Part shown: in pieces, positions 16,463 to 40,133 of the stretch
Numbering within the stretch: position 1 is the stretch's first letter
Layout of the letters: each line of letters starts with the position of its first letter
Source of the DNA: Levilactobacillus zymae DSM 19395
GTDB lineage: Bacteria; Bacillota; Bacilli; Lactobacillales; Lactobacillaceae
Assembly: GCF_001434115.1 (NCBI RefSeq)
Contig: NZ_AZDW01000029.1
Location: 1-56,642 of the forward strand
Length of the DNA stretch: 56,642 bases
Direction: 5' to 3'
The notes under the pieces: model-generated
Database searches by the model: none
What the model saw: only the letters and a program-made list of their open reading frames with translations
Told to the model about the DNA's origin: nothing
Position numbers and translations under genes: made by a program

Positions 16463-16496
16463 CCACTGATTCTACGCATAGGCTTCATGTAATTTA

Positions 16497-16540
16497 CCCA
16501 GTCAAAAAATGGCGTCCCGTGCACGGGGGCGCCATTTTTG
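16497..16540 (+). repeat. Terminator and left copy of a 44-bp direct repeat
   Basis: A strong terminator (AAAAAATGGCG.../...CGCCATTTTT) after the GH43 gene. The whole 44-bp block recurs at 20797-20840 with one difference (G versus A at the 30th-31st base), exactly 4300 bp away in direct orientation. The two copies bracket an AT-richer three-gene insert. Confidence 0.88.
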
Positions 16541-16588
16541 CGTACGGATAGGATTAATGATTACGCGAGAACAGGACGTTATCTGGGG

Positions 16589-20748: not shown

Positions 20749-20796
20749 AATTGAATGTCAAACTATGTTAAATGCATCTTAGTGTTAAAAAGAAAA

Positions 20797-20840
20797 CCCA
20801 GTCAAAAAATGGCGTCCCGTGCACGGAGGCGCCATTTTTG
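20797..20840 (+). repeat. Terminator and right copy of the 44-bp direct repeat
   Basis: 43 of 44 bases are identical to 16497-16540, including the stem and the T-run, so it also ends the GH28-transporter transcript. It closes the 4.3-kb insert. Confidence 0.88.
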
Positions 20841-20850
20841 TATACCAACT

Positions 20851-24872: not shown

Positions 24873-25072
24873 CTGAAAAACCTCCATGTCCAGAAACGGT
24901 AAATTGGTCGTGAGGCGACCAAGCCAGCATGGCGTGACTGTCGGTGAAACGACTATCTGATCACACCCAGAACGGGCATCAAAAATCTAATGAGTTAGCG
25001 TCATAATAGCATGCGAGGCGTTCCCCTAACTTAAAATCCGGGGAATCCCGACCGTTTCTTTGTTGTGAATCC

Positions 25073-25104
25073 AAAAAACGAGTTTACCGCCACGACGGTA
25101 AACT
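25073..25104 (-). terminator. Terminator-like hairpin in the leader of the minus-strand gene
   Basis: Read on the minus strand, AGTTTACCG/CGGTAAACT forms a perfect 9-bp stem with CG and six T residues behind it. No gene on that strand ends nearby; the next minus-strand start (24872) lies about 200 nt downstream. It may therefore be an attenuator or the end of a small antisense transcript. The remaining intergenic stretch 24888-25247 shows nothing else clear. Confidence 0.5.
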
Positions 25105-25247
25105 ACCACACCCTTCATCTTACCGCAAAAGCCCCACGGAGAGAAACCAAAACCACCATTTTTCTCATTTTAGATGGCCGAAAGTGGGGGAAAGCGGTCA
25201 ATTATTGTATGATGGAGACATAAAGTTGAAAAGGTGGTTTTTAAATC

Positions 25248-26111
25248 ATGCATAATGAGATTCCAGCCTTACCATTAAACAATGGCAATCGCATTCCCCA
25301 ACTCGGCCTGGGGGTCTTTCAGGTCGACAACGCCGAAGATACCAAGAACGCCGTGAAGTGGGCGTTAGCGGCCGGCTACCGGCACATCGACACGGCGGCC
25401 TACTACGGTAACGAACAGTGGGTGGGCGAAGCCATCCGCGAAAGTGGTCTCAAACGCGAAGACGTTTTTGTGACCTCGAAATTGTGGAACAACGAGCGAG
25501 GCTACGACCAGACCAAGGCGGCCTTTCAGGCAACGCTTGATAAGCTGGGTTTTGAATACCTCGACATGTTCCTGATCCACTGGCCGGCACCGGGCTACGA
25601 AGAAAGTTGGCGGGCCATGGAAGACCTGTACAAGGCCGGCAAGATCAAGAACATCGGGGTCTCCAACTTCCAGCAACATCAACTGGAACACCTGATGGAA
25701 AAGGCCACGGTCAAGCCGGTGGTCGACCAGATTGAAACGCACCCGTACTTCCAACAAAAAGAGTTGCACGCCTATCTGGAAACGCAGGGTATCTTACACG
25801 AGGCCTGGAGTCCGCTAGGCGGCGGCCGCAACAACGCCTTACACGACGCCGTGATCAACGAAATTGCGGCGGCCCACGACGTTAGTGCGGCGCAGGTCAT
25901 CTTGCGTTGGCACGTCCAACGCGAGGAAATCGTGATCCCGAAGTCCACGCATGAAGCGCGGATTGCGGAAAACCGCGACATCTTTGCCTTTGGCTTGGAC
26001 GAAGACGAAATGCACCAAATCAGTGACTTAGACGCCGGTAAGCGGGTCGGCCCGAATCCAGACGATGACGCCTGGTTGAAGCAGTCCCAGACTTACGCGG
26101 GCCGCAAATAG
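25248..26111 (+). CDS. Aldo/keto reductase (2,5-diketogluconate reductase type)
   Basis: A 287-residue NADPH-dependent oxidoreductase of the AKR superfamily with a (beta/alpha)8 barrel. The tetrad is visible: Asp in GYRHIDTAAYYGNE (residue about 48), Tyr (about 53), Lys in FVTSKLWN (about 78) and His in LIHWPAPG (about 109). The NADPH-site IPKSTHEARIAEN lies near residue 240. The substrate is unknown; carbonyls such as methylglyoxal or sugar-derived ketones are usual. It is a single-gene unit, followed by one copy of the structured intergenic repeat and by a bidirectional terminator. Confidence 0.92.
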   Translation: MHNEIPALPLNNGNRIPQLGLGVFQVDNAEDTKNAVKWALAAGYRHIDTAAYYGNEQWVGEAIRESGLKREDVFVTSKLWNNERGYDQTKAAFQATLDKLGFEYLDMFLIHWPAPGYEESWRAMEDLYKAGKIKNIGVSNFQQHQLEHLMEKATVKPVVDQIETHPYFQQKELHAYLETQGILHEAWSPLGGGRNNALHDAVINEIAAAHDVSAAQVILRWHVQREEIVIPKSTHEARIAENRDIFAFGLDEDEMHQISDLDAGKRVGPNPDDDAWLKQSQTYAGRK

Positions 26112-26154
26112 CGCGAAGCTTTAGGTAAGATAAAGCTGGTCGCCCTCCGGCGCT

Positions 26155-26278
26155 CAGGGGCTGGAACGCCAGTGGGCACAACTTCAAGCCTCGAAAGGCC
26201 CACGAGTCTTGAAGATTGGCCTTATTCTAGGTCGGGAAAGAACCCCGGCCAAGAATAATTTCACCGGCTGAGCCCCTG
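26155..26278 (+). repeat. Structured intergenic repeat, copy A
   Basis: A 124-nt element with three helices around a junction. The closing helix is CAGGGGCT/AGCCCCTG, continued by GCCAGTG/CACCGGC (one mismatch). The second hairpin is CTTCAAG/CTTGAAG. The third is TTATTCT/AGAATAA, with an inner GGTCGGG/CCCGGCC. It shares GTGGGC, a GACCTT-like segment and AATTTCAC with the copies at 29628, 29867 and 36633. It follows the aldo/keto reductase gene. Confidence 0.8.
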
Positions 26279-26409
26279 CTCGCCTCCGGGCTGGACGTTA
26301 GCAATTCCGGCCTACGATTGGTTTAGAGATAACGTCGTTTTTACTTTAGTAGCCGCTCAGCAAAGCAGCAAAAGTAAACACTCTACTAATTTGAAGACTT
26401 ATAATTAGC

Positions 26410-26449
26410 AAAATGGCGATCCTTCGGTAACCGGGGGAGCGTCATTTTT
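26410..26449. terminator. Bidirectional terminator
   Basis: An imperfect stem (AAAATGGCGATCC with GGGGAGCGTCATTTTT) has T runs in both directions, serving the aldo/keto reductase gene and the converging membrane-protein gene. Confidence 0.75.
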
Positions 26450-26453
26450 AGAT

Positions 26454-26852
26454 TCAACGGTATTTAGGGATGCCCTTGGCTTTCGCTTCGGCGCTGAGCT
26501 TATCCCCGATGATATTGGTCGCGGTAATCGGGACCTTGGTGAACGGGCTGAAGAGCCGGGGCTTGTCCGGGTTAGGGACGTCCTGATTCTCCCGCAAATT
26601 GGGCACCCAGGATTTCAAGTCGGCATAGTGATAACCGAGTTTTTGTGCGTAGTAGATAATTTCACGGTAGGTGACGTTTTTAAAGTAGAAGTAGTACGCC
26701 AGTCCGGCGGCCACGAAGTACCACAGAATGGTCCATTGCAGGCCAATCTTGCTGGGGGCTAAGAAGCCGGTGGTCACGGCGACCACGACGAAGGCCACGT
26801 AAAGGACCACGGCGGCAATCGCCCAGCGTAATTTGTGCGTCAAGTTAATCAT
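26454..26852 (-). CDS. Small membrane protein, unknown function
   Basis: A 132-residue protein, not recognised. Two transmembrane helices (residues about 9-31 and 38-55) form a short hairpin, followed by a cytoplasmic or external domain of about 75 residues with RENQDVPNPDKPRLFSPF. The ATG at 26852 follows GGAAGTGAG; a longer frame to 26906 has no ribosome site. It is a monocistronic gene converging on the aldo/keto reductase gene. Confidence 0.75.
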   Translation of the reverse strand: MINLTHKLRWAIAAVVLYVAFVVVAVTTGFLAPSKIGLQWTILWYFVAAGLAYYFYFKNVTYREIIYYAQKLGYHYADLKSWVPNLRENQDVPNPDKPRLFSPFTKVPITATNIIGDKLSAEAKAKGIPKYR

Positions 26853-26957
26853 CTCACTTCCGGTTGAGTTGTTCCCAGTGTAAGGGGCGCACCCCGGTAA
26901 ATTCAAGCGATTTGGTCAAATTTAAAGGGGAATCCTCGAAATTTGGGCTTAGTCGTG

Positions 26958-26963
26958 TATAAT
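26958..26963 (+). promoter_or_regulatory. -10 element in the long gap ahead of the GNAT gene
   Basis: A TATAAT in the 417-bp gap 26853-27269. If used, it gives a leader of about 300 nt before the GNAT start. No riboswitch was recognised in that leader; it contains the palindrome at 27114-27192. Confidence 0.45.
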
Positions 26964-27113
26964 AGCACAGTATTATATCTGTGTATTATCTTAGTTGAGG
27001 CAAAATAGTTAATCTAAGAGATGCAGGACGTAATTCTATGAATCTGATGTAGGTGAGTAATTCTTTGATTAGGGTTACGCAATGAGAATTAAACGTTTGT
27101 TTCATCACCTGCT

Positions 27114-27192
27114 AGTCAGTTACTAGGACCCGCTTTGAGGCTAGATGATGACTATTTGTTGAGGATTGATTCCAAAGCGGCCATTTCTGACT
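27114..27192. repeat. Intergenic inverted repeat
   Basis: AGTCAG (27114-27119) and CCGCTTTG (27130-27137) pair with CAAAGCGG (27173-27180) and CTGACT (27187-27192), around a 35-nt loop. There is no T-run. The right side resembles the outer arm of structured repeat copy C (TTTCTGACTGGCCC), so it may be a decayed relative of that element. Confidence 0.4.
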
Positions 27193-27269
27193 GGCCCGGA
27201 AGCGTTTATTAAAGGCAAGTCCTAGTTATCAAATTGTTGTGAGCCGCTGAGAAATGAGAGGTAGACGAA

Positions 27270-27806
27270 TTGAAGTTAAGCTTTGAAACGATTCAACCAA
27301 CGGATTTTGACCAAGTCGATCAGGTTGTGACGGACGCCTTTGCGCCGGTCAACGAAAGTCACGGACGGGAGGTCGCTTTCCTTCACCAGCTGCGAACCAC
27401 TTACGATTACCAACCAAGTTTTGAAATGGTCGCTAAGCCCGACACGGAACAAGTCGTGGCCCACGGGATGTTAACGCCCGTCACGGTGCGTGGAGACCGC
27501 CACACCACTAAGATTCTGGCCTTGGCGCCGTTAGCCGTGCACCCCGATTGGCAAGCCCAAGGGGTGGGCAGTCGGCTACTGAGTGAGTTAGAAGTCCGGG
27601 CGCGCCTAGAAGGTTACCCGGCCATCAGCGTGGTGGGCGATTCTAACTACTACGGGCAACGTGGATACGTGATGGCCGAAGAATTTTCGATCCATAACAG
27701 TCGGATGGTGCCCATGGGTAACCACTTGATCAAACCGTTGACGCCCGGGGCCTTGGCCCACGTCGGCGGGATGTTAGAATATCCGGCGGCCTTCGATAAA
27801 ATTTAA
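27270..27806 (+). CDS. GNAT-family N-acetyltransferase
   Basis: A 178-residue acetyl-CoA-dependent acetyltransferase. The acyl-CoA-binding motif A is LAPLAVHPDWQAQGVGSRLLSE (residues about 90-111, with the Q/R-x-x-G-x-G signature), and motif B is in YYGQRGYVMAEEF (about 128-140). YgiG/YhbS-like members acetylate small molecules or protein N-termini; the substrate here is unknown. The start is TTG with GAGAGGTAG upstream. It stands alone ahead of the T-box leader. Confidence 0.85.
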   Translation: MKLSFETIQPTDFDQVDQVVTDAFAPVNESHGREVAFLHQLRTTYDYQPSFEMVAKPDTEQVVAHGMLTPVTVRGDRHTTKILALAPLAVHPDWQAQGVGSRLLSELEVRARLEGYPAISVVGDSNYYGQRGYVMAEEFSIHNSRMVPMGNHLIKPLTPGALAHVGGMLEYPAAFDKI

Positions 27807-27866
27807 ATTAAAGGTTGACGGCCTTTTCTCATCGTGCTATCATTCTAGTCAATCAAATAACGAACG

Positions 27867-28121
27867 CTAACTTCCATTACAAGTAGCGGATTATCTGGGT
27901 GTCAGAAAGTCGGTGGGTGCTGCGAACCGATCAGGGTAATTTCGACGAAATACAGTGGAACGTCCTGGTCCGCCAGGCGGAGAAACTAGAACCGTTACCT
28001 TCTAGAGAGTGGATTAGCTGGGCCCTTAGGCGGACTGGCTAGTCAAGCTGGGTGGTACCACGGTAGAAGTCAATCAATCGTCCCTGTTGCAAGGAAACTT
28101 GCGGCAGGGACGATTTTTTTA
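27867..28121 (+). promoter_or_regulatory. T-box leader with probable Tyr specifier
   Basis: The T-box core GGGTGGTACCACGG (28050-28063) is followed by a strong terminator (ATCGTCCCTG.../...CAGGGACGAT, T7, 28077-28118). Upstream, stem I can be drawn with TTCCA (about 27882-27886) pairing TGGAA (27956-27960). The bulge opposite holds GAAATACAG, so UAC (27951-27953) is the probable specifier, read by tRNA-Tyr. Uncharged tRNA-Tyr would stabilise the antiterminator and switch on the transporter downstream. Specifier assignment is by hand alignment. Confidence 0.88.
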
Positions 28122-28146
28122 TTGAGAGAACGAGGAGAGTGGTCGT

Positions 28147-29586
28147 ATGAAACAAGCAAAGCAGTGGCAACCCGTTAAATTAGGGGAAGCCTTGATCGTG
28201 TTACTTCTGATGTTGGTGATTATGGGAACCGGGGTCATTAAGTTTGGCTTGTCCCCCCAAACGCCGGTCATGTTGGTCATTGCCCTGGTCATCTTGTGGG
28301 CGCGGGTCCGCGGCGCCGACTGGGAAAAGATTCACGGCGGTATCATTGACGGTATCAAGACCGGAATCATCCCCATCTTCATTTTCATCCTGATTGGGGC
28401 GCTGATCAGTGTCTGGATTCAAGCCGGGATTATTCCGTCCATGATGGTGGTTGGGTTTCACTTAATCTCCGCCAAATGGTTCGTGCCGTCGGTCTTTCTG
28501 GTGTGTGCCATCATCGGGTCGTCCATCGGGAGTGCCTTTACCATCATCTCGACCGTGGGAATTGCTCTGTTCGGGATGGGCGCGACCATGGGGATGAACC
28601 CCGCGTTAGTCGCCGGGGCCATCATCTCTGGGGCCATCTTCGGTGATAAGACCTCGCCGCTATCCGACTCGACCAACTTGGCGTCCGCCGTGGCCGAAGC
28701 CGACCTGTTCAGCCACATCCGTAACCTGATGTGGTCCACGATTCCGGCCTTCCTGGTGTCGCTGGTGATTTACGCCGTCATCGGGACCGGTGCCGCCAGT
28801 GACAACGGCATGAGCAAAATCGCTACGACCGTCAACACGTTACAGACGCACTTCACCATCAGTTGGTGGGCCGCTTTGCCACTGGTCATCATGGTCGTTT
28901 GTGCCGTGATGAAGGTGCCGGCCATCGCTACGCTGTTCTTAAACATCGGGGTGGCCATCGTAATGATTTTTGTGGAACAGCCTAAGACCTCATTGTCCGG
29001 GTTAGCCACGACCATCGAATCCGGGTTCGTGTCCAAGACCGGGAACGCCAGTGTCGACGCCCTGTTATCCCGGGGTGGGGTCAGTTCGATGATGGGGACG
29101 GTTTCCCTGATCATCTTGACCCTGTCATTAGGGGGCTTACTGATGAAGTTCGACCTGATCCAAACGGCGATGACGCCACTGGTCAACCATCTGACCAAGT
29201 CTGGATCTCTGGTCACCGCTGCCATCTTAGGGGGCATCGGGGTCAACATCTTCGTCGGCGAACAGTACTTATCCGTGATCTTACCCGGCAAGGCCTTCAA
29301 GCAAGCCTTTAACCAACGCGGGTTAGCCAACTTAGCGTTAAGCCGGGTCTTGGAAGATGGCGGGACCGTCATCAACTACCTGATTCCTTGGGGCGTGGCC
29401 GGGGCCTTTGCGGCCAACACGCTGGGCGTCTCGACGCTGGCTTACCTGCCATTCTGCTTCTTCAGTCTATTGTCGCCAATCTTCTCGATCATCAGTGGGT
29501 TCACAGGCATTGGCTTGAAGCGGCAAGCGCCCGCTGCGGCCACCAACGCCACCACGGCCGTTACGCCGGAAGCTTCTGGTCGGTAG
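28147..29586 (+). CDS. NhaC-family antiporter, probable tyrosine transporter
   Basis: A 479-residue membrane protein with 11-12 helices of the NhaC family (Na+/H+ antiporter type), with the family segments IFGDKTSPLSDSTNLAS (residues about 165-181) and NIFVGEQYLSVILPGKAF (about 365-382). Control by a Tyr-type T-box argues that it moves tyrosine rather than only ions; NhaC-like transporters under Tyr T-boxes have been predicted in other Lactobacillales. The aromatic biosynthesis operon begins about 0.8 kb downstream. The gene begins with ATG after GAGGAGAG. A structured repeat copy lies 41 bp after its stop. Confidence 0.85.
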   Translation: MKQAKQWQPVKLGEALIVLLLMLVIMGTGVIKFGLSPQTPVMLVIALVILWARVRGADWEKIHGGIIDGIKTGIIPIFIFILIGALISVWIQAGIIPSMMVVGFHLISAKWFVPSVFLVCAIIGSSIGSAFTIISTVGIALFGMGATMGMNPALVAGAIISGAIFGDKTSPLSDSTNLASAVAEADLFSHIRNLMWSTIPAFLVSLVIYAVIGTGAASDNGMSKIATTVNTLQTHFTISWWAALPLVIMVVCAVMKVPAIATLFLNIGVAIVMIFVEQPKTSLSGLATTIESGFVSKTGNASVDALLSRGGVSSMMGTVSLIILTLSLGGLLMKFDLIQTAMTPLVNHLTKSGSLVTAAILGGIGVNIFVGEQYLSVILPGKAFKQAFNQRGLANLALSRVLEDGGTVINYLIPWGVAGAFAANTLGVSTLAYLPFCFFSLLSPIFSIISGFTGIGLKRQAPAAATNATTAVTPEASGR

Positions 29587-29627
29587 AGTTGTTAGATCTG
29601 TCGTTGTTGGTCGCCTTACCGGTCGGT

Positions 29628-29757
29628 CCCAGTGGGGCTGGAACGTGGTGGGCACGACTTGAAGCCTCACCCAACCCGTGAGTCTTCAAGCTCGACCTTT
29701 CTGTAAGCCGGGAAACCCACCCGCCTAACAGAAATTTCACCACTGAGCCCCATTGGG
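29628..29757 (+). repeat. Structured intergenic repeat, copy B
   Basis: A 130-nt element. The closing helix is CCCAGTGGGGCT/AGCCCCATTGGG (one G-T pair), continued by GTGGTG/CACCAC. The second hairpin is CTTGAAGCCTCAC/GTGAGTCTTCAAG with small mismatches. The third is TTTCTGT/ACAGAAA. Relative to copy A the second helix is CTTGAAG/CTTCAAG instead of CTTCAAG/CTTGAAG, a compensated change. It follows the NhaC gene. Confidence 0.8.
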
Positions 29758-29866
29758 ATCTCCCTCTCGGCTAAGATTGGTGATTCCTCCCAGATGGCGG
29801 GAGCACTTAACGGTGGGGGACTGGGGTACCAACTTTTCCTGAGAGTAGCGCAACGGCGCCGACTGG

Positions 29867-29981
29867 CGTTCCAGTAGTGAAATTATCCTTAAGCGACGTT
29901 TCTTGTCGCTTTAGGATAAGGTCGAGTTCTGGAGACCGCCGGGGTTGGGCGGGCTTCAGAATCGTGCCCACTACTGGAACG
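29867..29981 (-). repeat. Structured intergenic repeat, copy D (inverted)
   Basis: On the minus strand it has the same plan: closing helix CGTTCCAGTAGTG/CACTACTGGAACG (13 bp), second hairpin TTCTG/CAGAA with an inner CGCC/GGCG, and third hairpin TTATCCT/AGGATAA continued by AGCGAC/GTCGCT. Conserved single-stranded GTGGGCACGA, CTCGACC and AATTTCAC match the other copies. It points towards copy B, between the NhaC gene and the aromatic operon. Partly paired GC-rich flanks extend it to about 29858-29991. Confidence 0.75.
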
Positions 29982-30085
29982 CTGGCTCGGCAGAGTGCAG
30001 CGGCTGGCACCACGACAGCCGACCGGCAAGGCGGCTCACCAACGACTAGCCTCCACAAAAAAAGAAAATTAAAATGAAATTAGCA

Positions 30086-30114
30086 TTGACATTGTAAAAT
30101 GAGAATGTTTTAAT
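30086..30114 (+). promoter_or_regulatory. Promoter of the aromatic operon
   Basis: TTGACA (30086-30091) is a perfect -35; TTTAAT (30109-30114) follows after 17 bp. Transcription would start near 30121, leaving about 30 nt before the leader peptide and about 310 nt before the first structural gene. Confidence 0.7.
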
Positions 30115-30149
30115 ATAACCAATCACTTAAACGGAAAGGACAGATAATC

Positions 30150-30209
30150 ATGACAACCTTACAGTTACCAACGACCGCGTATTATTTTGGCTTAGTTTAC
30201 TTTAGGTAG
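30150..30209 (+). CDS. Tyr/Phe-rich leader peptide of the aromatic operon
   Basis: A 19-codon reading frame, MTTLQLPTTAYYFGLVYFR then TAG. Its ribosome site GGAAAGGA (30133-30140) is excellent, with 9-nt spacing. Five of the last nine residues are Tyr or Phe (YYF at codons 11-13, YF at 17-18), the end products of the operon that follows. Hairpins and a terminator follow directly. This is the arrangement of enterobacterial pheA- and trp-type leader peptides, in which a ribosome stalled for lack of charged tRNA changes RNA folding. It is too short for most gene callers. A direct function for the peptide itself is not implied. Confidence 0.8.
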   Translation: MTTLQLPTTAYYFGLVYFR

Positions 30210-30212
30210 CGT

Positions 30213-30393
30213 CCGTATCGCATTCCAGATACGGGCGGCACACACGTCCGTGTCTAGAGTTAGCGAAGTCATGATTGTCTTTGGCCAGCTAGACACGTTT
30301 CACCTAGCTAGGCTAAATCCAATTTCTCTCGAGAAAAAATCCGTCTTAGGGCGGGGATTAGGTCAGCTAGATGAATCTCTAGCTGGCCTTTTT
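30213..30393 (+). terminator. Attenuator with alternative hairpins
   Basis: Segments in order: hairpin CCGTATC/GATACGG (30213-30219 with 30228-30234) just after the leader stop; CGTGTCTAG (30249-30257), which can pair with CTAGACACG (30289-30297); GGCCAGCTAGA (30283-30293), a perfect complement of TCTAGCTGGCC (30378-30388); CTAGCT...CTAAATCC (30304-30320), which can pair with GGATTAGGTCAGCTAG (30355-30370). The terminator is GGTCAGCTAGA/TCTAGCTGGCC (30361-30371 with 30378-30388) followed by T5. The pairings exclude each other, as expected of transcription attenuation. Confidence 0.75.
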
Positions 30394-30429
30394 GTTTGCT
30401 TTTACCGTCAAATCAAGGGAGAGAGTTCT

Positions 30430-31923
30430 ATGAATAAACGCACGTTATCACTCAGCCTATACCTGAACTACTTCGTTCACGGGATTGGGTTGATCATCCT
30501 GACCCAAAACATGCAGGCGCTCAGCCAGCATTGGAATTCACCGCTGGCCACCGTGTCCTACGTCTTCTCGGGTATCGGGATCGGCCGGATCTTCGCCTAC
30601 TTCATCTTCGGTAACTTGTCCGACCGCTTCGGCCGCAAGGTCTTCGTCAACATCGGGATGCTCAGCTACCTGGTCTTCTTCTTGGGCATGGCGTTCGTCA
30701 GCAACATCCAAGTGGCCTACGCCTTAGCTATTGTTGCCGGGATCGCCAATTCGGCGTTAGATTCCGGGACCTACGCGACCTTCATCGAAATGGGGGGCAA
30801 TCAGGGTTCCGCCAACATTTTGATCAAAGCCTTCATGTCCATCGGGGAATTCATCTTGCCCCTGTTCATCGCCACGCTGGAAGCCAACCAGGCATGGTAC
30901 GGCTGGTCCTTCATGTTAGCCGCCGCGGTCCTGGTCTTCAACCTGTTCTTCTTGAACCGGCAGACCTTCCCACAACGGAACCTGGCCGACGACGCCACGG
31001 CGGTCGCCGCTCAACAGTTACCCAAGTCCCGCCGGATCCTTGCCTCGTTAGGCTTGGCGGGTTACGGGTACACCTCAATGGCTCTGATGATTCTTTACAC
31101 CCAGTGGATTAGTCTGTTCGTCACCAAGACTTACGGCTTCGGTCCGGTCTTAGCGCACCTGTTGTTGTCGCTGTACAGTATCGGCTCCATCACCGGGGTC
31201 ATCGTGATTTTCATTCTTCTGCGGGCCGGCTTCGCGGAACGCAAGTTGTTGGTCGGCATGAACGTGGGCTCCCTGGTGACCCTCGCGGTGGTCTGCTACG
31301 CGGCCGTGCCGTGGTTGTCGATGATCGCCTCGTTTACCTTCGGGTTCTTAGCCGCCGGGGGCGCGATGCAAATCGGGTTAAACATCTTCTTGCGGTTGTA
31401 CCCGCACATCAAGGGGACGATTACCGGGACGTTCTTCACGTTCGGCAGTGTGGCGGCCTTCACGATTCCGCTGATCACCGGTTGGTTGTCCAAGCAAAGC
31501 ATTGCCGCGGCGATGCGGTCCGACTTAGTGGTCGCCGTTGCCGGGTTGATTTGTGTGGCGGTCACCGCCTGGGCGTTACGACCGACGCATTCGTTAGAAG
31601 CCGACCGCAAGACCATCAACCAAATCGACCAAAAGATCGTCCGCTTGTTGAATCAACGGTTCGAGACCGTTACCGACATTAGCGACCTGAAGCAACAGGC
31701 CCACTTGCCGGTCTTGGACCAGAGCCGAGAAGACCGGGTCTTGGACCGGGTCGCTCAACGCAGTAATCAAGCGGCGCACACGCCGTACCTACAAGCCATT
31801 TACCAAGCTATTATGAGTAATTCGCGGGCTTACCAGACCGCCCGTAAGACTACCACGCACCACGTGACCCCGGCCGCACCACAGGCTAGCGGGCTAACCA
31901 ATAAGGAGGATTTACATGATTAA
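30430..31923 (+). CDS. MFS transporter fused to a type II chorismate mutase (AroQ)
   Basis: A 497-residue fusion. Residues about 1-385 are a 12-helix major facilitator (motif A GNLSDRFGRKVF near residue 61). Residues about 390-470 are an AroQ chorismate mutase. All E. coli active-site positions can be matched: Arg393 (R11), Arg in LLNQRF (R28), Lys in DLKQQ (K39), Asp, Arg and Glu in VLDQSRED (D48, R51, E52), and Ser and Gln in SNSRAYQT (S84, Q88). The mutase makes prephenate on the cytoplasmic side. The carrier's substrate is unknown: aromatic amino acid, shikimate or prephenate. ATG 30430 follows AAGGGAGAGAG. It overlaps aroC by 8 bp and is the first gene after the attenuator. Confidence 0.87.
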   Translation: MNKRTLSLSLYLNYFVHGIGLIILTQNMQALSQHWNSPLATVSYVFSGIGIGRIFAYFIFGNLSDRFGRKVFVNIGMLSYLVFFLGMAFVSNIQVAYALAIVAGIANSALDSGTYATFIEMGGNQGSANILIKAFMSIGEFILPLFIATLEANQAWYGWSFMLAAAVLVFNLFFLNRQTFPQRNLADDATAVAAQQLPKSRRILASLGLAGYGYTSMALMILYTQWISLFVTKTYGFGPVLAHLLLSLYSIGSITGVIVIFILLRAGFAERKLLVGMNVGSLVTLAVVCYAAVPWLSMIASFTFGFLAAGGAMQIGLNIFLRLYPHIKGTITGTFFTFGSVAAFTIPLITGWLSKQSIAAAMRSDLVVAVAGLICVAVTAWALRPTHSLEADRKTINQIDQKIVRLLNQRFETVTDISDLKQQAHLPVLDQSREDRVLDRVAQRSNQAAHTPYLQAIYQAIMSNSRAYQTARKTTTHHVTPAAPQASGLTNKEDLHD

Positions 31924-33085
31924 TTACGTAACCGCAGGCGAATCACACGGCCCCCAATTAACGGGCATTCTGACCGGCATTCCCGCCGGTTTGACCTTAG
32001 ACATCGACGCCATCAACGCGGGCCTGAGTGCCCGGCAAGGTGGCTTCGGCCGGGGCAACCGGCAACAGATCGAACACGACCAGGTCACCGTGGTCGGCGG
32101 CCTGCGCCACGGCGTCACGTTAGGCTCGCCGTTAGCGTTGACCATTCAAAACCGCGACCACGCCCACTGGGCCAAGATCATGAACCCGACCAGCCCGGCC
32201 ACTCCGGAAAATACCCTCCGGCAGGTGACTCGGCCGCGACCCGGTCACGCCGATTTGGTCGGGGGCATGAAGTACGGCCACCGCGATTTGCGCAACGTTT
32301 TGGAACGCTCCTCGGCCAGAGAAACCGCCATGCGGGTGGCTATTGGGCAGATTTGTAAACAACTCTTAGCCCAACTGGACATCCACTTGGTGGGGTACGT
32401 CCAACAAATCGGTCAGGTCAAGACCGACCCGCAAGCCGGGCTAGACGTGGCCGACCTGGAACACGCCATCACCCAAAACGACCTGCGCATCACCGATAAC
32501 ACCAAGGTCGACGAGATCCACGAGTTGATTACCGCGACGCGCAAGGCCGGCGATACGCTGGGCGGCGTGATTCGGGTAGTCGCCACCCACGTGCCGGCCG
32601 GCTTGGGAAGCTACACCAACTGGGACACCAAGTTGGATGGCAAACTCGCCGCGGCCGTGATGGGCGTCAACGCCATGAAGGGGGTCGAGATTGGCGACGG
32701 CTTCGCGGCCGCGGCCAGTCACGGTAGCCAGGTGATGGACGAGATCGACTGGAACGCCGAAGATGGCTGGTCACGGTTGACCAACCACCTGGGCGGGTTC
32801 GAAGGCGGGATGACCAACGGCATGCCAATCATCGTCAAGGCGGCCATGAAGCCGATTCCGACCCTCTACAAGCCGCTACAGAGCGTCGACATTGCCACCA
32901 AGGAAGTCAAGAAGGCTAGCGTGGAACGCTCCGATACCACTGCCATCGTGCCGGCGTCCATCGTGGTCGAAAGTGTGGTGGCCATCGAATTGGCCAAGGC
33001 AATCACGGAAACGTTTGACGGCAGTAACCTCGAGCGGCTGAAGCGGACCATCGCCGAGTACCGCGACGAGCTCCAACGCTACTAA
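31916..33085 (+). CDS. aroC: Chorismate synthase
   Basis: This enzyme converts 5-enolpyruvylshikimate 3-phosphate to chorismate, using reduced FMN. The 389-residue protein has all three family signatures: GESHGPQLTGI (residues about 8-18), the central GHADLVGGMKYGHRDLRNVLERSSARETA region (about 113-141, given here as GHADL to RETA), and a C-terminal RSDTTAIVPA (about 337). Start overlaps the end of the MFS-mutase gene, indicating translational coupling. The operon makes chorismate and then prephenate, although the mutase gene precedes the synthase gene. Confidence 0.97.
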   Translation: MINYVTAGESHGPQLTGILTGIPAGLTLDIDAINAGLSARQGGFGRGNRQQIEHDQVTVVGGLRHGVTLGSPLALTIQNRDHAHWAKIMNPTSPATPENTLRQVTRPRPGHADLVGGMKYGHRDLRNVLERSSARETAMRVAIGQICKQLLAQLDIHLVGYVQQIGQVKTDPQAGLDVADLEHAITQNDLRITDNTKVDEIHELITATRKAGDTLGGVIRVVATHVPAGLGSYTNWDTKLDGKLAAAVMGVNAMKGVEIGDGFAAAASHGSQVMDEIDWNAEDGWSRLTNHLGGFEGGMTNGMPIIVKAAMKPIPTLYKPLQSVDIATKEVKKASVERSDTTAIVPASIVVESVVAIELAKAITETFDGSNLERLKRTIAEYRDELQRY

Positions 33086-33094
33086 GGGGCGACC

Positions 33095-33622
33095 ATGAAA
33101 ATTCATACCCTGGGGCCCAGAGCGACCGATAGTTACGCCGCGGCCCAGCATTATAACCAAGTCGCGTACGCCGGGGCGGCCACCATCGTGGGGCATTCCA
33201 GCTTCGAAGAGATTTTGACCGACCTCGACGCGTACGCGCACGACGAATTGGTGATTCCGGCGGCCTTCAAGTCGCCCACGTTGCACGCCAGCTGGGGCGA
33301 CGTCCATTATGCGTTGCTCGACCACTGGACCTTAAAGACCAGTTTCATCACGGCCCTGGATCCGCTGGTGGTGGTGCAACGGTTAGATGCCGACAACCGC
33401 ATCGGATACACCCACGCGGCCACGGCCCAACTGCTCCAGCGAATCGTCAGTCAGGTGGACGTGCAGACCGCCACCAGCAAGTATTTAGCGTATCGCGCCT
33501 ATCAGGATAACCGGGGCGCCTACGTGTTGACCAACGAAAAAAACGTCAGCTTAGGGGCTGACGAACGACTATTAAAACGCCTCACGCCCAGCATGGTGTG
33601 GTGCGTCTATCAAATTAAGTAA
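33095..33622 (+). CDS. Prephenate dehydratase-like / BacA-like protein
   Basis: A 175-residue protein with the fold of the prephenate dehydratase catalytic domain: N-terminal IHTLGPRATDSYAAA corresponds to the family's LGPxGTxSExAA, followed by HSSFEEIL and DELVIPAAF, and a second lobe with TSKYLAYRAYQ and AYVLTNEKN. It has no ACT domain and lacks a clear TRF catalytic motif, and its length is close to BacA, the prephenate decarboxylase of bacilysin synthesis. It could make phenylpyruvate for Phe, act as a decarboxylase-like enzyme, or be inactive. It sits between aroC and aroA in the same operon, so a prephenate substrate is likely. Confidence 0.65.
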   Translation: MKIHTLGPRATDSYAAAQHYNQVAYAGAATIVGHSSFEEILTDLDAYAHDELVIPAAFKSPTLHASWGDVHYALLDHWTLKTSFITALDPLVVVQRLDADNRIGYTHAATAQLLQRIVSQVDVQTATSKYLAYRAYQDNRGAYVLTNEKNVSLGADERLLKRLTPSMVWCVYQIK

Positions 33623-33634
33623 GGGTGAGACCAG

Positions 33635-34948
33635 ATGATCAAAACATTAATGCGCCGGCCAACGACCGGTTTACACGGCGCCATCACGGTGCCCGGCGAT
33701 AAGAGTATTTCCCATCGCGGGCTGATCTTGGGGGCCATTAGTACGGGGACCACGCGGTTGACCCACTTCTTAACGGCCGCGGATTGCTTGTCGACGTTAA
33801 ACGCGTTACACGCGTTGGGCGTGCCGATTCAGCGCGACGGTACCACGGTCACGGTGACCGGCCAGGGCTTACACGGCTTACGGGCCGCCAATCAGCCCCT
33901 CGATATGGGGAACGCCGGGACCGCCACGCGCTTGATGACCGGGTTACTGGCCGGCCAAAACTTCGACGCGACGTTGGTGGGGGATGCGTCGTTGAGCCAA
34001 CGCCCGATGGCCCGGGTCCAGCAACCGTTGGCTACCATGGGTGCGCAGATTGACCTGACGGCCGGCCACCTGCCAATGCAAATTCACGGCCGGGCGTTAC
34101 ACGCCACGCACGTCGAGATGCAAGTGGCCAGCGCCCAGGTCAAGAGTTCCTTGATCTTAGCGGCCTTACAGGCGGACGGTCCCAGCACCATTGTCGAAAA
34201 GCTCCCGACCCGCGACCACACCGAACGGCTCTTGCGGGCGTTTGGCGGTGACTTGACCACGGCGGCGGACGGACACACCATAACGGTCCAGCCCCAACCG
34301 CACCTGACCGGCCAAAACATCACGGTGCCCGGAGACGTCTCCTCAGCGGCCTTTTTCTTGACGGCGGCCAGCATCGTTCCCGGTTCGCAAATTACTCTCA
34401 AGGACGTGGGCTTAAATCCCACCCGGACGGGGATCATCGACGTGCTCCAACGGATGGGCGGCCACCTCGACATCCGGCCGACCGACCAGCCGGGGGAACC
34501 GCTGGGTGACATCACGGTCAGCGCCGCGCAGTTACACTCCATCAAATTGACGGCCGCCGATATTCCGGCGGTGATCGACGAGTTGCCGCTGGTGGCCTTA
34601 CTGGCCGCCACGGCCGACGGGGTCAGCGAAATCAGTGGGGCCGAGGAGCTGCGGGTCAAGGAGACCGACCGCATCGCCACCATCGTGACCGAACTACGGA
34701 AATTGGGCGTGCAGATCACCGAAAAACCGGACGGCTTTATCATCGACGGGCGGCCAACCTGGCGGGTCACCGACGCGCAATTTGACAGCCACGGCGACCA
34801 CCGCATCGGCATGATGATGGCCATCGCGGCCCTGCGGTTGACCACGCCGACCACCTTAGCGGACGCCGGGGCCATCAACATTTCCTACCCCAGCTTCTTT
34901 GACGACCTGACCCACTTGACTACCGAAACGGAGGCCACTCATGCCTAA
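33635..34948 (+). CDS. aroA: 3-phosphoshikimate 1-carboxyvinyltransferase (EPSP synthase)
   Basis: This enzyme joins shikimate 3-phosphate and phosphoenolpyruvate to form EPSP. The 437-residue protein shows VPGDKSISHRGLILGAIS (residues about 19-36), GNAGTATRLMTGLLAG (about 91-106, the PEP/glyphosate site), LPTRDHTERLL (about 190) and EELRVKETDRI (about 337-347). The tyrA start lies inside its last codons (8-bp overlap). The gene order aroC, PDT-like, aroA, tyrA, aroK gives one transcript. Confidence 0.96.
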   Translation: MIKTLMRRPTTGLHGAITVPGDKSISHRGLILGAISTGTTRLTHFLTAADCLSTLNALHALGVPIQRDGTTVTVTGQGLHGLRAANQPLDMGNAGTATRLMTGLLAGQNFDATLVGDASLSQRPMARVQQPLATMGAQIDLTAGHLPMQIHGRALHATHVEMQVASAQVKSSLILAALQADGPSTIVEKLPTRDHTERLLRAFGGDLTTAADGHTITVQPQPHLTGQNITVPGDVSSAAFFLTAASIVPGSQITLKDVGLNPTRTGIIDVLQRMGGHLDIRPTDQPGEPLGDITVSAAQLHSIKLTAADIPAVIDELPLVALLAATADGVSEISGAEELRVKETDRIATIVTELRKLGVQITEKPDGFIIDGRPTWRVTDAQFDSHGDHRIGMMMAIAALRLTTPTTLADAGAINISYPSFFDDLTHLTTETEATHA

Positions 34949-36038
34949 AATCTTGATTAAGGGCCTCGGCCTGATTGGTAGTTCGCTAGCGTTAGCGATT
35001 CGCGCGGCGCACCCGGACGACCGGCTGGTGGGCTGTGACGTCAACGGGGACAGCCTCGACTACGCGGTGGCCCAACACCTGATCGACGAACGGGCGGACG
35101 ACTTCATGGCCGCCGCACCGACCGCCGACGTGATTATTCTGGCCGGCCCGGTCAGCGTGATCTGTGACGACTTGGCGTTGCTGGCGTCGTTGACGCTCAA
35201 ACCCGACGTCTTGATCACCGACGTGGGGAGCACCAAGCAAACCGTCTTACGGGCCGCTAAGCCCTTGCAACAGCGCGGCGTGACCTTTATCGGCGGCCAC
35301 CCCATGGCCGGGTCGCACAAGTCCGGGGTCACCGCCGGACGCGCCGATTTATTCGAAAACGCGTTTTACTTTCTGGTGCCGGGCCTCGCGCCGAGTAGCG
35401 CGGTGACCCGGCTACAGGACCTCTTAGTCGGCGCTCACGTCAAATGGTTGACGGTCACGCCGACCCAACACGACCGCATCGTGGGCCAGCTGAGTCACTT
35501 ACCCCACATCGTGGCCGCCGCGCTGGTCAACCAGACGCAAGCCGCGTTGGCGGACTCGCCGTTGGGGCTGCGGTTAGCGGCCGGGGGCTTCAAGAGCATC
35601 ACTCGGATCGCCTCGTCGGACCCGACCATGTGGACCGCCATCCTACTGAACAACGGCGCATTAGTGGCCGACCAGTTACGAGCCTACCAGGCGGAACTGA
35701 ACCGGATGGAAACGGCGATTACCACCCGAGATGCCGCGCAGATTAACGCGTTTTTCACCCACGCGAAGACCACCCGCGACCACCTGGGGCCCGACCGGTT
35801 GGGGAGCCTACCTAATTTTTTTGATTTATTCCTGAACGTGCCCGACCAGGTTGGCGCCATTGCGGACGTCACCCACCGCTTGGCTACGGCCCACCTGAGC
35901 TTAGTCAATATTCATATTTTAGAGATTCGTGAAGAAGTCGACGGGGTCTTGCAGCTGACCTTCGGGGAAGCCGCGACCCGCGACCAGGCCGCCGAGCTAT
36001 TACAGGCCGCCGATTACCAGATTGTGAGGAGGAGTTAA
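34941..36038 (+). CDS. tyrA: Prephenate dehydrogenase with C-terminal ACT domain
   Basis: This enzyme oxidises and decarboxylates prephenate to 4-hydroxyphenylpyruvate, the precursor of tyrosine. The 365-residue protein starts with the NAD-binding GLGLIGSSLALAIR (residues about 8-21), has the catalytic-His region IGGHPMAGSHKSG (about 117-129) and ends with an ACT domain (residues about 294-360; NVPDQVGAIADVTHRLA), usually the site of Tyr feedback. Thus the pathway is controlled both by the enzyme and by the leader attenuator. Coupled to aroA by overlap. Confidence 0.95.
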   Translation: MPKILIKGLGLIGSSLALAIRAAHPDDRLVGCDVNGDSLDYAVAQHLIDERADDFMAAAPTADVIILAGPVSVICDDLALLASLTLKPDVLITDVGSTKQTVLRAAKPLQQRGVTFIGGHPMAGSHKSGVTAGRADLFENAFYFLVPGLAPSSAVTRLQDLLVGAHVKWLTVTPTQHDRIVGQLSHLPHIVAAALVNQTQAALADSPLGLRLAAGGFKSITRIASSDPTMWTAILLNNGALVADQLRAYQAELNRMETAITTRDAAQINAFFTHAKTTRDHLGPDRLGSLPNFFDLFLNVPDQVGAIADVTHRLATAHLSLVNIHILEIREEVDGVLQLTFGEAATRDQAAELLQAADYQIVRRS

Positions 36039-36039
36039 C

Positions 36040-36567
36040 ATGCAGGCAATTTTGATTGGCTTCATGGGCAGTGGGAAGACCACCGTGGGGCAGTTATTAG
36101 CCACGGAACTGGGGACCCACCACGCCGACTTGGACGACATGATCGTCCAACGCGCCGGGAAGACCATTAGTACGATTTTTGAGGAACGGGGCGAAGCCTA
36201 CTTTCGCCAGCTCGAACAACAGACCCTCCGCGACGCCATCGCCCAACCGGGAATCCTCTCCACGGGGGGCGGCACGCCCACGATTGCGGCCAACGCGGCG
36301 ATCTTAAAGGCCAGCCCGGTACCCGTCATTTGTTTGACGGCCAGCGACCAGACGATTCTGGGACGCGTGGCGCAGGACACCGGCCGGCCCCTGGTCGACG
36401 AATTAGGCAGCCAAGGGTTAATGGCCCTGAAGCAAAAGCGCGCGGCCCTGTACCGCGCGGCGGCCGACGTTCTGGTGGCCACGGACAACCTGACCCCGGA
36501 ACAAATCGTGGCCGAGATCAAGACCCGGATTTTACGGCCGGTACACCGACTGGCGGCCAACGGGTAA
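36040..36567 (+). CDS. aroK: Shikimate kinase
   Basis: This enzyme phosphorylates shikimate at O3 with ATP. The 175-residue protein has the P-loop GFMGSGKTTVGQ (residues about 6-17), DLDDMI (about 32), the substrate-binding RGEAYFRQLE (about 48-57) and STGGGTP (about 72). It follows tyrA by one base and is the last gene of the operon. No terminator follows directly; structured repeat copy C lies 65 bp after the stop. Confidence 0.95.
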   Translation: MQAILIGFMGSGKTTVGQLLATELGTHHADLDDMIVQRAGKTISTIFEERGEAYFRQLEQQTLRDAIAQPGILSTGGGTPTIAANAAILKASPVPVICLTASDQTILGRVAQDTGRPLVDELGSQGLMALKQKRAALYRAAADVLVATDNLTPEQIVAEIKTRILRPVHRLAANG

Positions 36568-36632
36568 AGCAATTTAAACTCTGATGACTAGAGTCCGTCT
36601 TAAATAATTAATTTGGAGTATTCAGCGCCTCC

Positions 36633-36773
36633 GGGCCAGTCAGAAATGGGCTGGAACGGAGTGGGCGCGGCTTCAAGCCCGCAGTTCAGGTCTTGAAGAC
36701 CGACCTTTGTCTAGGCTGGCAAGGAACGCCAACCAACACAAATTTCACTCCTGAGCCCATTTCTGACTGGCCC
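36633..36773 (+). repeat. Structured intergenic repeat, copy C
   Basis: A 141-nt element whose outer arms are a perfect 20-bp inverted repeat (36633-36652 with 36754-36773). The helix continues with GGAGTG/CACTCC after the unpaired GGAAC/TG. The second hairpin is CTTCAAG/CTTGAAG, the third TTTGT/ACAAA with an inner GGCTGG/CCAACC. Conserved GTGGGC, CGACCTT and AATTTCAC match the other copies. It follows aroK. Confidence 0.82.
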
Positions 36774-37044
36774 TCCAGCTTACACGAGTTATAACAATAA
36801 TTAAACTAGATTCTTTTCAGCAAAGGGTAAGGGCTGGTCATTTAAATCGGCGATTGGGTTAGGCCCTAGGAGCATCGTTTTGGTTACGTGGTCGAATAGC
36901 TGGACATGGATGGTGAAATAGTTTATTTATAGAAGATGAAGTTTTTACTCGTTGGCGTTTAATAAAAGTAGTAAAAGAAAATATAGCGGATACAAAAACG
37001 ATATCGAAACGGACTATTCACCGTGTAAAGAAAGGTTGATGAAT
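36774..37044. other. AT-rich intergenic stretch
   Basis: The 477-bp gap between aroK and the next candidate gene holds repeat copy C and then this AT-rich stretch. Here the only reading frame (from about 36952) lacks a ribosome site and has unusual composition. No promoter could be fixed with confidence. Confidence 0.4.
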
Positions 37045-38122: not shown

Positions 38123-39742
38123 ATGGCGGAAACGACGACCAAGAAGCGTAAGCTGATCCAATACGCCAACGGACGATCACTAGAGGAAATCAACGGCACC
38201 GTGGATGTGCCGCACAATATTAGTTTTATGAAGGCCTTGTTCATGTATTCGGGGCCCGGGGCCTTAGTTGCCGTGGGGTACATGGATCCCGGCAACTGGT
38301 CGACGTCGATTACCGGGGGGCAAAACTTCCAGTACCTGTTAATGTCTGTCATCTTGATTTCAAGTTTAGTCGCGATGCTGTTGCAGTACATGGCAGCCAA
38401 ACTTGGAATCGTGAGTCAAATGGACTTGGCCCAAGCCATTCGGGCGCGAACCAGTAAAGCCCTGGGCATTGTCTTATGGATCATGACCGAATTCGCCATC
38501 ATGGCGACCGATATCGCCGAAGTTATCGGGGCGGCGATTGCGTTATACCTGCTGTTCCATATTCCGTTGATCATCGCGGTGTTCATTACCGTTTTTGATG
38601 TGTTGCTTTTGCTCTTATTGACCAAGATTGGTTTTCGGAAGATCGAAGCGATTGTGGTCTGCCTGATTATGGTGATTCTGGTGGTCTTCGCCTACCAAGT
38701 CGCCTTGTCTAATCCTAACTGGGGTGGCGTTTTCGCCGGCCTGATTCCGACCGGCAAGACGTTTGCGGCCAGTCCGACCGTGGGCGGGTCCAACCCGCTA
38801 CAGGGGGCGCTGGGCATCATTGGGGCGACCGTCATGCCGCACAACTTGTACCTGCACTCCGCCATTTCGCAAACCCGGAAGATCGACCACAATTCTGAAA
38901 AGGACATTGCGCGGACGGTCCGCTTTGCCAGCTGGGATTCCAACATCCAACTGACGCTGGCCTTCTTCGTTAACGCGCTGCTGTTGATCATGGGGGTCGC
39001 CGTCTTCAAGTCCGGCGCCGTCAAGGATCCGTCGTTCTTCGGGCTGTTTCAAGCGCTGTCCGATACGGCGACCATGAGTAACGGCGTGTTGGCCTCGGTC
39101 GCCAAGACCGGGATTTTATCCACCTTGTTCGCCGTCGCTTTGTTGGCCTCTGGGCAAAACTCCACGATTACCGGGACCTTGACCGGGCAGGTCATCATGG
39201 AAGGCTTCGTCCACATGCGGATGCCGCTGTGGTTGCGGCGCTTAGTTACCCGGGTCATTTCCGTGATTCCCGTACTGATCTGCGTGTCCATGACTAGCGG
39301 CAAGAGTGCCATTGACGAACACGTGGCCTTAAACGATTTGATGAACAATTCGCAAGTCTTTCTGGCCTTTGCCTTGCCATTCTCGATGCTGCCGTTATTG
39401 ATGATGACCGACAGTAAGTTGGAAATGGGAAAGTTCAAGAATTCCTTATGGGTCAAGGCGTTAGGCTGGTTGTCCGTGATTGGGTTGACCGTGCTGAACA
39501 TGCAGGGCTTACCCGACCAAATCACCGGCTTCTTCGGGGACAACCCGACGGCGGCCCAAACGGCATTGGCGCACGGCATCGCTGACTTCCTGATTGTCGT
39601 GATTCTGGCCTTACTGCTCTGGACGATCGTTGAGTTGCACCACGGCAATAAGCAGTTAGCCGCCCATCTGAAGGCGGAAGGGCAACCGTCCGCCGTAGAA
39701 GCGGCGATGACCGAAGGCGTGGAGAACCACGAGGAAGATTAA
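38123..39742 (+). CDS. mntH: Nramp-family Mn2+ transporter MntH (copy 1)
   Basis: A 539-residue proton-coupled divalent-metal importer with 11 helices. The metal-binding helix 1 motif is GYMDPGNWSTSITGG (residues about 52-66) and helix 6 carries GATVMPHNLYLHSA (about 232-245). Lactobacilli use Mn2+ in large amounts in place of superoxide dismutase. A second gene with nearly the same protein begins 0.4 kb downstream. The ATG has GAAAGGAAG upstream. The 260-bp region before it has a weak terminator-like CCCGGGATGGG with T6 (about 37962-37980) and GC-rich hairpins; no clear MntR box was found there. Confidence 0.95.
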   Translation: MAETTTKKRKLIQYANGRSLEEINGTVDVPHNISFMKALFMYSGPGALVAVGYMDPGNWSTSITGGQNFQYLLMSVILISSLVAMLLQYMAAKLGIVSQMDLAQAIRARTSKALGIVLWIMTEFAIMATDIAEVIGAAIALYLLFHIPLIIAVFITVFDVLLLLLLTKIGFRKIEAIVVCLIMVILVVFAYQVALSNPNWGGVFAGLIPTGKTFAASPTVGGSNPLQGALGIIGATVMPHNLYLHSAISQTRKIDHNSEKDIARTVRFASWDSNIQLTLAFFVNALLLIMGVAVFKSGAVKDPSFFGLFQALSDTATMSNGVLASVAKTGILSTLFAVALLASGQNSTITGTLTGQVIMEGFVHMRMPLWLRRLVTRVISVIPVLICVSMTSGKSAIDEHVALNDLMNNSQVFLAFALPFSMLPLLMMTDSKLEMGKFKNSLWVKALGWLSVIGLTVLNMQGLPDQITGFFGDNPTAAQTALAHGIADFLIVVILALLLWTIVELHHGNKQLAAHLKAEGQPSAVEAAMTEGVENHEED

Positions 39743-40042: not shown

Positions 40043-40093
40043 TTTAGGGTCAACTAAAAAAGTCTTTGCACGAGTTTAGATTTAATGTACAAT
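40043..40093 (+). promoter_or_regulatory. mntH2 promoter with MntR-like box
   Basis: The MntR-like palindrome TTTAGGGTCAACTAAA (40043-40058) lies just upstream of -35 TTTGCA (40065-40070); -10 TACAAT (40088-40093) follows after 17 bp. Mn-loaded MntR bound here should hinder polymerase. Confidence 0.65.
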
Positions 40094-40133
40094 GGGGCTG
40101 TTGTTAAGTTGTAAAGAGAGAGGGTTTTTTGTC

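Follow-up and report, generated by a model that had tools for sequence, protein, structure and literature searches.

Among the closest described counterparts of the element analyzed here are the supermotifs of L. plantarum (LPSM), presented in the available excerpts of PMC5643018, citing Wels et al. 2009 (J Bacteriol), as intergenic, cruciform sequences of 800-1000 nt that occur in many copies, are transcribed as stable RNA and were not found in other Lactobacillus species. The element, hereafter the fold-back repeat, is likewise intergenic, cruciform-like and multi-copy, but differs from that excerpted account in its presence in 14 of 40 genera instead of L. plantarum only and, in a comparison made by description, in that a module was resolved here where the supermotifs are given as wholes of 800-1000 nt. 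High copy number, intergenic location and inverted pairs also recall the REP/BIME/REPIN sequences and their RAYT (Y1) partners; however, in the excerpted sources REPs are palindromes of 20-40 bp, while the model of the fold-back repeat has 138 positions and a three-way junction, and there is no Y1 partner that tracks its copies. Bacterial MITEs, in the portion of PMC10969869 available, are similarly short, non-coding and multi-copy, although in our element terminal inverted repeats were found on the units of one subfamily (B) only, the compensated core is common to subfamilies with unlike flanks, and no partner transposase was seen. The excerpts returned by the literature search held no recognisable description of the fold-back repeat, PMC5643018 being the one lead; the available part of PMC2267715 does not concern it.

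The window analyzed in this study is a stretch of 56,642 nucleotides from Levilactobacillus zymae DSM 19395 (contig NZ_AZDW01000029.1; genome G000). A first-pass annotation of its letters had described four intergenic copies of an element with a conserved three-helix fold. All four copies were present where it placed them, in agreement with the cores recovered by cmsearch, and all of them contained what had been listed as shared, namely GTGGGC, a GACCTT-like segment, AATTTCAC and the pairing helices. The features of the window that belong to the repeat are given below, together with their state in two relatives, G034 and G001, whose flanks are 92-93% and 87-91% identical to G000, respectively.

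26111-26400, plus strand: segment carrying copy 1, lying between the stop codon of the aldo/keto reductase gene and its terminator; absent in G001
26144-26288, plus strand: copy 1 (subfamily C), P1 and three-way junction (cmsearch with model R1, 113.6 bits)
27181-27204, no strand assigned: leftover single arm of a deleted copy; full copy here in G034 and G001
29600-29626 and 30019-30046, no strand assigned: outer inverted arms of the copy 2/3 doublet (by eye)
about 29600-30046, no strand assigned: inverted doublet formed by copies 2 and 3 (from the sequence), flipped as a block in G034 and G001
29621-29763, plus strand: copy 2 (subfamily A; cmsearch, 125.5 bits)
29854-29996, minus strand: copy 3, diverged doublet partner of copy 2 (cmsearch, 83.4 bits)
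36588-36869, plus strand: B-type carrier of copy 4, with CTAGAGTCCGTCTTAAAT as its left end and a decayed right end
36634-36771, plus strand: copy 4 (subfamily B; cmsearch, 150.5 bits)

The proposed fold was borne out in each copy when compared with 200 dinucleotide shuffles of its own sequence (z = -5.3, -6.5, -10.4 and -8.0 for copies 1 to 4, with 0/200 shuffles folding as well). The module comprises approximately 140-180 nt. A long stem (P1) closes a three-way junction from which two similarly built hairpins emerge, each consisting of 7 bp, a single mismatch, additional pairs and a loop of some 7 nt. P1, the outer stem, is variable in sequence and reaches up to about 20 bp, and the element is larger than first described. 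P1 contains a conserved internal loop (5' GGAAC / 3' TG), followed by GTG/CAC and then by the junction. Outside P1, a TTCC/TCC loop was recognised by eye, as was P0, which is a short stem. The GG of GTGGG pairs with the CC of GACC and leads into hairpin H2, where 3 bp and a bulge are followed by 7 bp, a single mismatch, additional pairs and a loop of some 7 nt. In hairpin H3, an A.A mismatch separates 7 bp from a second run of up to 7 bp, which ends in a loop of similar size (about 7). The bases that precede CAC are mostly ATTT, with ACGA or ATGA in some copies of alignment A1. Unpaired junction bases, the A.A mismatch and hairpin lengths are all conserved, and the subfamilies, which we label A, B, C and D, follow a common plan and differ in P1 and flanks.

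BLAST with copy 2 detected 42 places in G000; alignment A1, with 28 copies, showed double changes at 35 of 49 pairs (RNAalifold); and a covariance model, R1, matched G000 at least 72 times at E ≤ 0.01 (150 of 880 candidates scored). The original observation is right and its extent was understated, four copies being a small sample of the at least 72 in the genome. The annotation had proposed searches of the Lactobacillaceae with a covariance model and of Rfam as checks. With R1, matches were found in 33 of 35 genomes of the genus (94 candidates scored per genome) and in 87 of 301 genomes of the family, belonging to 14 of 40 genera (10 candidates scored per genome, stricter filters). With a second model, R2, built from the larger alignment A3, matches across the order were found in 9 of 246 genomes, all nine of the same family (13 candidates scored per genome, stricter filters), while at least 134 places were detected in the complete genome G019 (150 of 703 candidates scored) and at least 38 in G034 (150 of 617). 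A pattern scan of named genomes returned at least 105 stretches, the 80 matches listed belonging to Levilactobacillus, Lacticaseibacillus, Schleiferilactobacillus, Companilactobacillus, Pediococcus, a Limosilactobacillus MAG and Lactobacillus sp. MAGs. The element had no match in Rfam: there were 0 matches in the window at the gathering score (Rfam 15), and at E up to 5 a set of four loci gave 5 matches, 0 of them on the element. Among plasmid sequences, neither the B consensus nor a G019 doublet had a match, while L098, an element of another genus, was found in 4 records and an L. plantarum doublet in 26; phage sequences contained no match to the B consensus, L098 or the L104 doublet. On contig C1 of G019, 0 of the at least 134 matches fell between 0.93 and 1.72 Mb. 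Exclusion of the repeat from this part of the chromosome was discarded as an explanation, given five matches at 1.12-1.14 Mb in G034.

The compensated changes between copies had been taken as a sign that selection keeps the fold, and covariation remained strong in the larger alignment. A3 consisted of 127 matches (125 distinct) fitted to R1, hence leaning towards structure; 94.3% of its cells pair, double-sided changes occur at 49 of 51 pairs, and its covariation score was 0.592, vs. 0.168 when shuffled and at most 0.081 with partners slid. The fold is real and maintained. Wobble pairs were scarce: omitting columns 32/283 and 52/277, which held 125 G.U cells between them and were judged not to be true helix, the plus strand of A3 contained 5620 Watson-Crick, 56 G.U and 128 A.C cells, a wobble share of 1.0% if the plus strand folds and of 2.2% if the minus strand does, vs. 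6.2% in a small control of tRNAs from the same set of loci (n = 21; 318 Watson-Crick, 21 G.U, 6 A.C and 12 other). The minus strand gave the better fold in 67 of 71 own copies and in 106 of 125 wider ones. Should a single strand be the relevant one, the opposite of that folded in the first-pass annotation is thus the more likely, but related copies weigh heavily here, three H3 pairs supplying 58 of the 128 A.C cells.

The tempo of these changes was evaluated in 55 pairs formed by a copy and its nearest relative (27 from alignment A4 and 28 from A5, at 85-98.5% identity and not all orthologues). There were 83 double changes, 74 of them from Watson-Crick to Watson-Crick, vs. about 9 predicted under independence, and 137 single changes vs. 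about 286 predicted, distributed as 42 G.U, 52 A.C and 43 other. Compensation proceeds quickly, and no wobble step is favoured on the way. Such a pattern bears on the possibility that the copies are passive palindromes whose arms are made to agree by template switching during replication, or by hairpin exchange among copies, producing covariation with no selection on the fold. The speed of the double changes, which include transversions, and the lack of wobble preference among single changes agree with this explanation, and so do the inversions and the deletions of hairpins or arms presented below, which show the arms interacting as DNA; exchange of hairpins among copies would likewise yield double changes. 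Arm correction alone, however, would not account for the fixed lengths of the hairpins or for the conservation of the A.A mismatch and of the bases at the junction, and module types persist across genera; we judge passive palindromes quite improbable, though still a live alternative.

Gene context was analyzed for 70 own copies, after removal of two partial hits, the longest non-overlapping frames serving as a crude set of genes. Copies lay between convergent genes in 21 cases and between divergent genes in 7, and those between genes on the same strand were in sense orientation in 20 cases and antisense in 18; 4 of the 70 had no downstream neighbour in the stretch and 4 overlapped a called frame. 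In the window, copy 1 comes after an aldo/keto reductase gene, copy 2 after a Na+/H+ antiporter gene and copy 4 after a shikimate kinase gene. The orientation counts fit avoidance of promoters better than a stranded role in 3'-UTRs, and a sense-strand 3'-UTR element, at which the pairs of a plus copy followed by a minus copy had hinted, was rejected on the 20 vs. 18 count. Of the two roles suggested at first, a 3'-UTR element or a mobile non-coding element, the latter fits better.

Several other features of the window were recorded in passing. A candidate T-box leader (27890-28130, plus strand) precedes the Na+/H+ antiporter gene; it had no match at the Rfam gathering score, and contains a terminator and, at 28051-28063, GGTGGTACCACGG, which we take to be the T-box motif. 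Ahead of the chorismate/shikimate gene cluster, a small frame at 30150-30209 (plus strand; MTTLQLPTTAYYFGLVYFR, by eye) looks, from its run of aromatic residues, like a candidate attenuator leader peptide. Judging from its matches, the single frame at 30421-31923 (plus strand) is an apparent fusion, in which residues 13-349 correspond to a major facilitator transporter and residues 396-472 to a type II chorismate mutase. The 50-base stretches at 16496-16545 and 20796-20845 are 94% alike and look like the same intrinsic terminator twice; the frames at 38123-39742 and 40092-41750 (plus strand), 81% alike over their first 300 bases, likely represent a tandem gene duplication; and an 18-base unit is repeated head-to-tail at least 37 times at 48807-49700, within a frame of 759 codons on the minus strand (48590-50869).

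Copies tend to be paired in a fixed arrangement. Considering as neighbours matches at most 700 bp apart, in sets partly related by descent, 48 of the 50 close neighbours in G019 were tail-to-tail (plus then minus), with one ++ pair, one -- pair and none in the minus-then-plus order. The same arrangement was found in 17 of 18 close neighbours from 49 loci (1 tandem, 0 head-to-head), in 6 of 7 from G000 (1 tandem) and in 3 of 3 from G034. The tail-to-tail gaps of G019 fall into two classes (57-84 bp and 119-321 bp), and inspection by eye of 19 aligned doublets showed two different module types paired in each class, 10 of 10 wider and 5 of 9 narrow doublets carrying GCCTTACCGG, or a sequence close to it, at each end; several doublets lay just outside gene terminators (by eye).

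The comparison of relatives showed that doublets are turned around in place and that copies are gained or lost. The copy 2/3 doublet is reversed both in G034 (84%) and in G001 (82%). At the site of copy 1, the counterparts of 24900-26110 and 26401-27184 adjoin in G001, where the end of the gene runs into the terminator with no copy 1 segment, while G034 has about 60 unrelated bases; copy 4 had no counterpart at its site within the stretches of G034 and G001 compared, and at 27181 both relatives retain the full copy of which G000 keeps one arm. Over a 19.9-kb stretch with four doublets, in which the flanks of G019 and G018 are 93-96% alike, two doublets are inverted (598 bp at 85% and 291 bp at 81%), another lacks a hairpin, and the last belongs to a collinear block. 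A fifth G019 place, where a single module was detected, has no equivalent in G018, but the site there is not cleanly empty. By eye, loci L071 and L073 also look like one site in two species with its doublet reversed, and a B unit of G034 lacks a whole hairpin, hairpins or arms being deleted at three places overall. A clean empty site with target duplication was found neither in the relatives compared, including G018, nor in the plasmid comparisons, and the comparison of strains revealed no fresh insertion, one copy being kept at 99.4-100% in six L. salivarius plasmids.

These rearrangements, together with the wobble counts, bear on the proposal that the element acts as RNA. A functional structured RNA would require that transcribed copies, in 3'-UTRs or free, protect or process transcripts or bind a protein. 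The strong covariation (0.592 vs. 0.168), the conserved unpaired junction bases, the better fold of the minus strand and the position of copy 1 between a stop codon and a terminator are consistent with it, as is the description of probable relatives in L. plantarum as stable, transcribed RNA (PMC5643018, excerpts). Nevertheless, the sense bias is absent (20 vs. 18), doublets place both orientations side by side and invert, wobble is scarce compared to tRNAs (1.0 or 2.2% vs. 6.2%), and several G019 doublets stand outside gene terminators. The maintained fold claimed in the first-pass annotation stands, but action as RNA does not follow from it, in view of the scarce wobble, the lack of wobble preference in single changes, the absence of sense bias and the inversion of doublets; we consider a functional RNA unlikely, while still deserving attention.

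Subfamily B differs from the rest in its carrier. Its copies sit in a unit of 289 bp with 18-bp terminal repeats (CTAGGGCCTGTCTTAAAA) and CTAG at both ends; with up to 4 mismatches, both terminal repeats were recovered for 9 of the 72 own copies and at least one for 20 of 72, while none were seen on the other subfamilies, whose flanks differ. In the carrier of copy 4, CTAGAGTCCGTCTTAAAT departs from the terminal repeat by 3 to 4 changes, and CTAG is found at 36866-36869 (by eye). The B units could suggest an ordinary miniature transposon, in which a DDE transposase acts on the terminal repeats and the folded core is mere cargo. Against this, the exact 15-base end of B has 27 matches, in 4 of 33 genomes of the genus, vs. 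33 of 35 for the module, and cargo would not need a compensated fold. A partner insertion sequence with B-unit ends was sought and none was found at the 8 loci read among the 27 exact matches, nor was any seen among the 30 near matches to the B end in G000, which were read in part. The B carrier looks local and the module widespread, and an ordinary miniature transposon appears very unlikely as a general explanation. A RAYT/Y1 transposase (PF01797) was also rejected as mobiliser, since its presence does not track copies: Y1 is absent from 11 of 33 genomes of the genus, including G000 and G019, and present in G012 and G025, both with no detected copies.

Taken together, we give an even chance to the fold-back repeat being a mobile element of Lactobacillaceae that is structured, non-coding and non-autonomous, and is kept for its fold. 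This reading is based on the compensated fold, the scarce wobble, the breadth of distribution, the tail-to-tail rule, the inversions, the presence or absence of copies between relatives, the loss of hairpins, the terminal repeats of B, and the excess of convergent over divergent contexts (21 vs. 7). A whole doublet would constitute a cruciform-like fold-back, and the spreading form could be a single strand in its folded state, DNA exposed during replication being the likeliest candidate, whose shape and conserved junction bases would be recognised by a putative trans-acting enzyme. Working copies would have to keep the fold, with paired changes accumulating in active lineages, while single changes would collect in dead copies; recombination between the two halves of a doublet would result in inversion, and selection against damage would leave copies mostly at gene ends. 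Counted against a mobile repeat are the lack of a mobiliser, of a clean empty site and of a strain-level insertion among the sequences compared, as well as the better fold of the minus strand and the excess of A.C over G.U on the plus strand, both of which would be expected of a minus-strand RNA. The A.A mismatch and the conserved bases at the junction could also be RNA motifs, and the probable relatives in L. plantarum, being described as transcribed in the excerpts of PMC5643018, suggest by analogy that action as RNA may be possible. More tentatively, and with somewhat less than an even chance, the mobile repeat may represent a family-wide class of mobile DNA, in which the conserved unit would be a single-stranded fold, with paired three-way-junction modules, near-strict Watson-Crick arms, a putative spreading enzyme, and flips and hairpin loss in place.

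A probable link with L. plantarum is provided by the L104 doublet (genome G281), which spans about 754 bp between perfect 20-bp arms and is flanked by a gene whose protein is 99% identical to L. plantarum proteins. Likened by description to the excerpted account, the supermotifs are probably the L. plantarum members of the fold-back repeat; the repeat may then not be wholly new, but is much wider than reported in the available excerpts of PMC5643018. If the supermotifs belong here, a puzzle of one species becomes a comparative one. Very strong covariation in an element whose action as RNA is in doubt calls for caution in covariation-based RNA discovery, and the repeat offers a test system for the mobilisation of folded single strands. 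In common food and gut bacteria, it may form much of the structured intergenic DNA.
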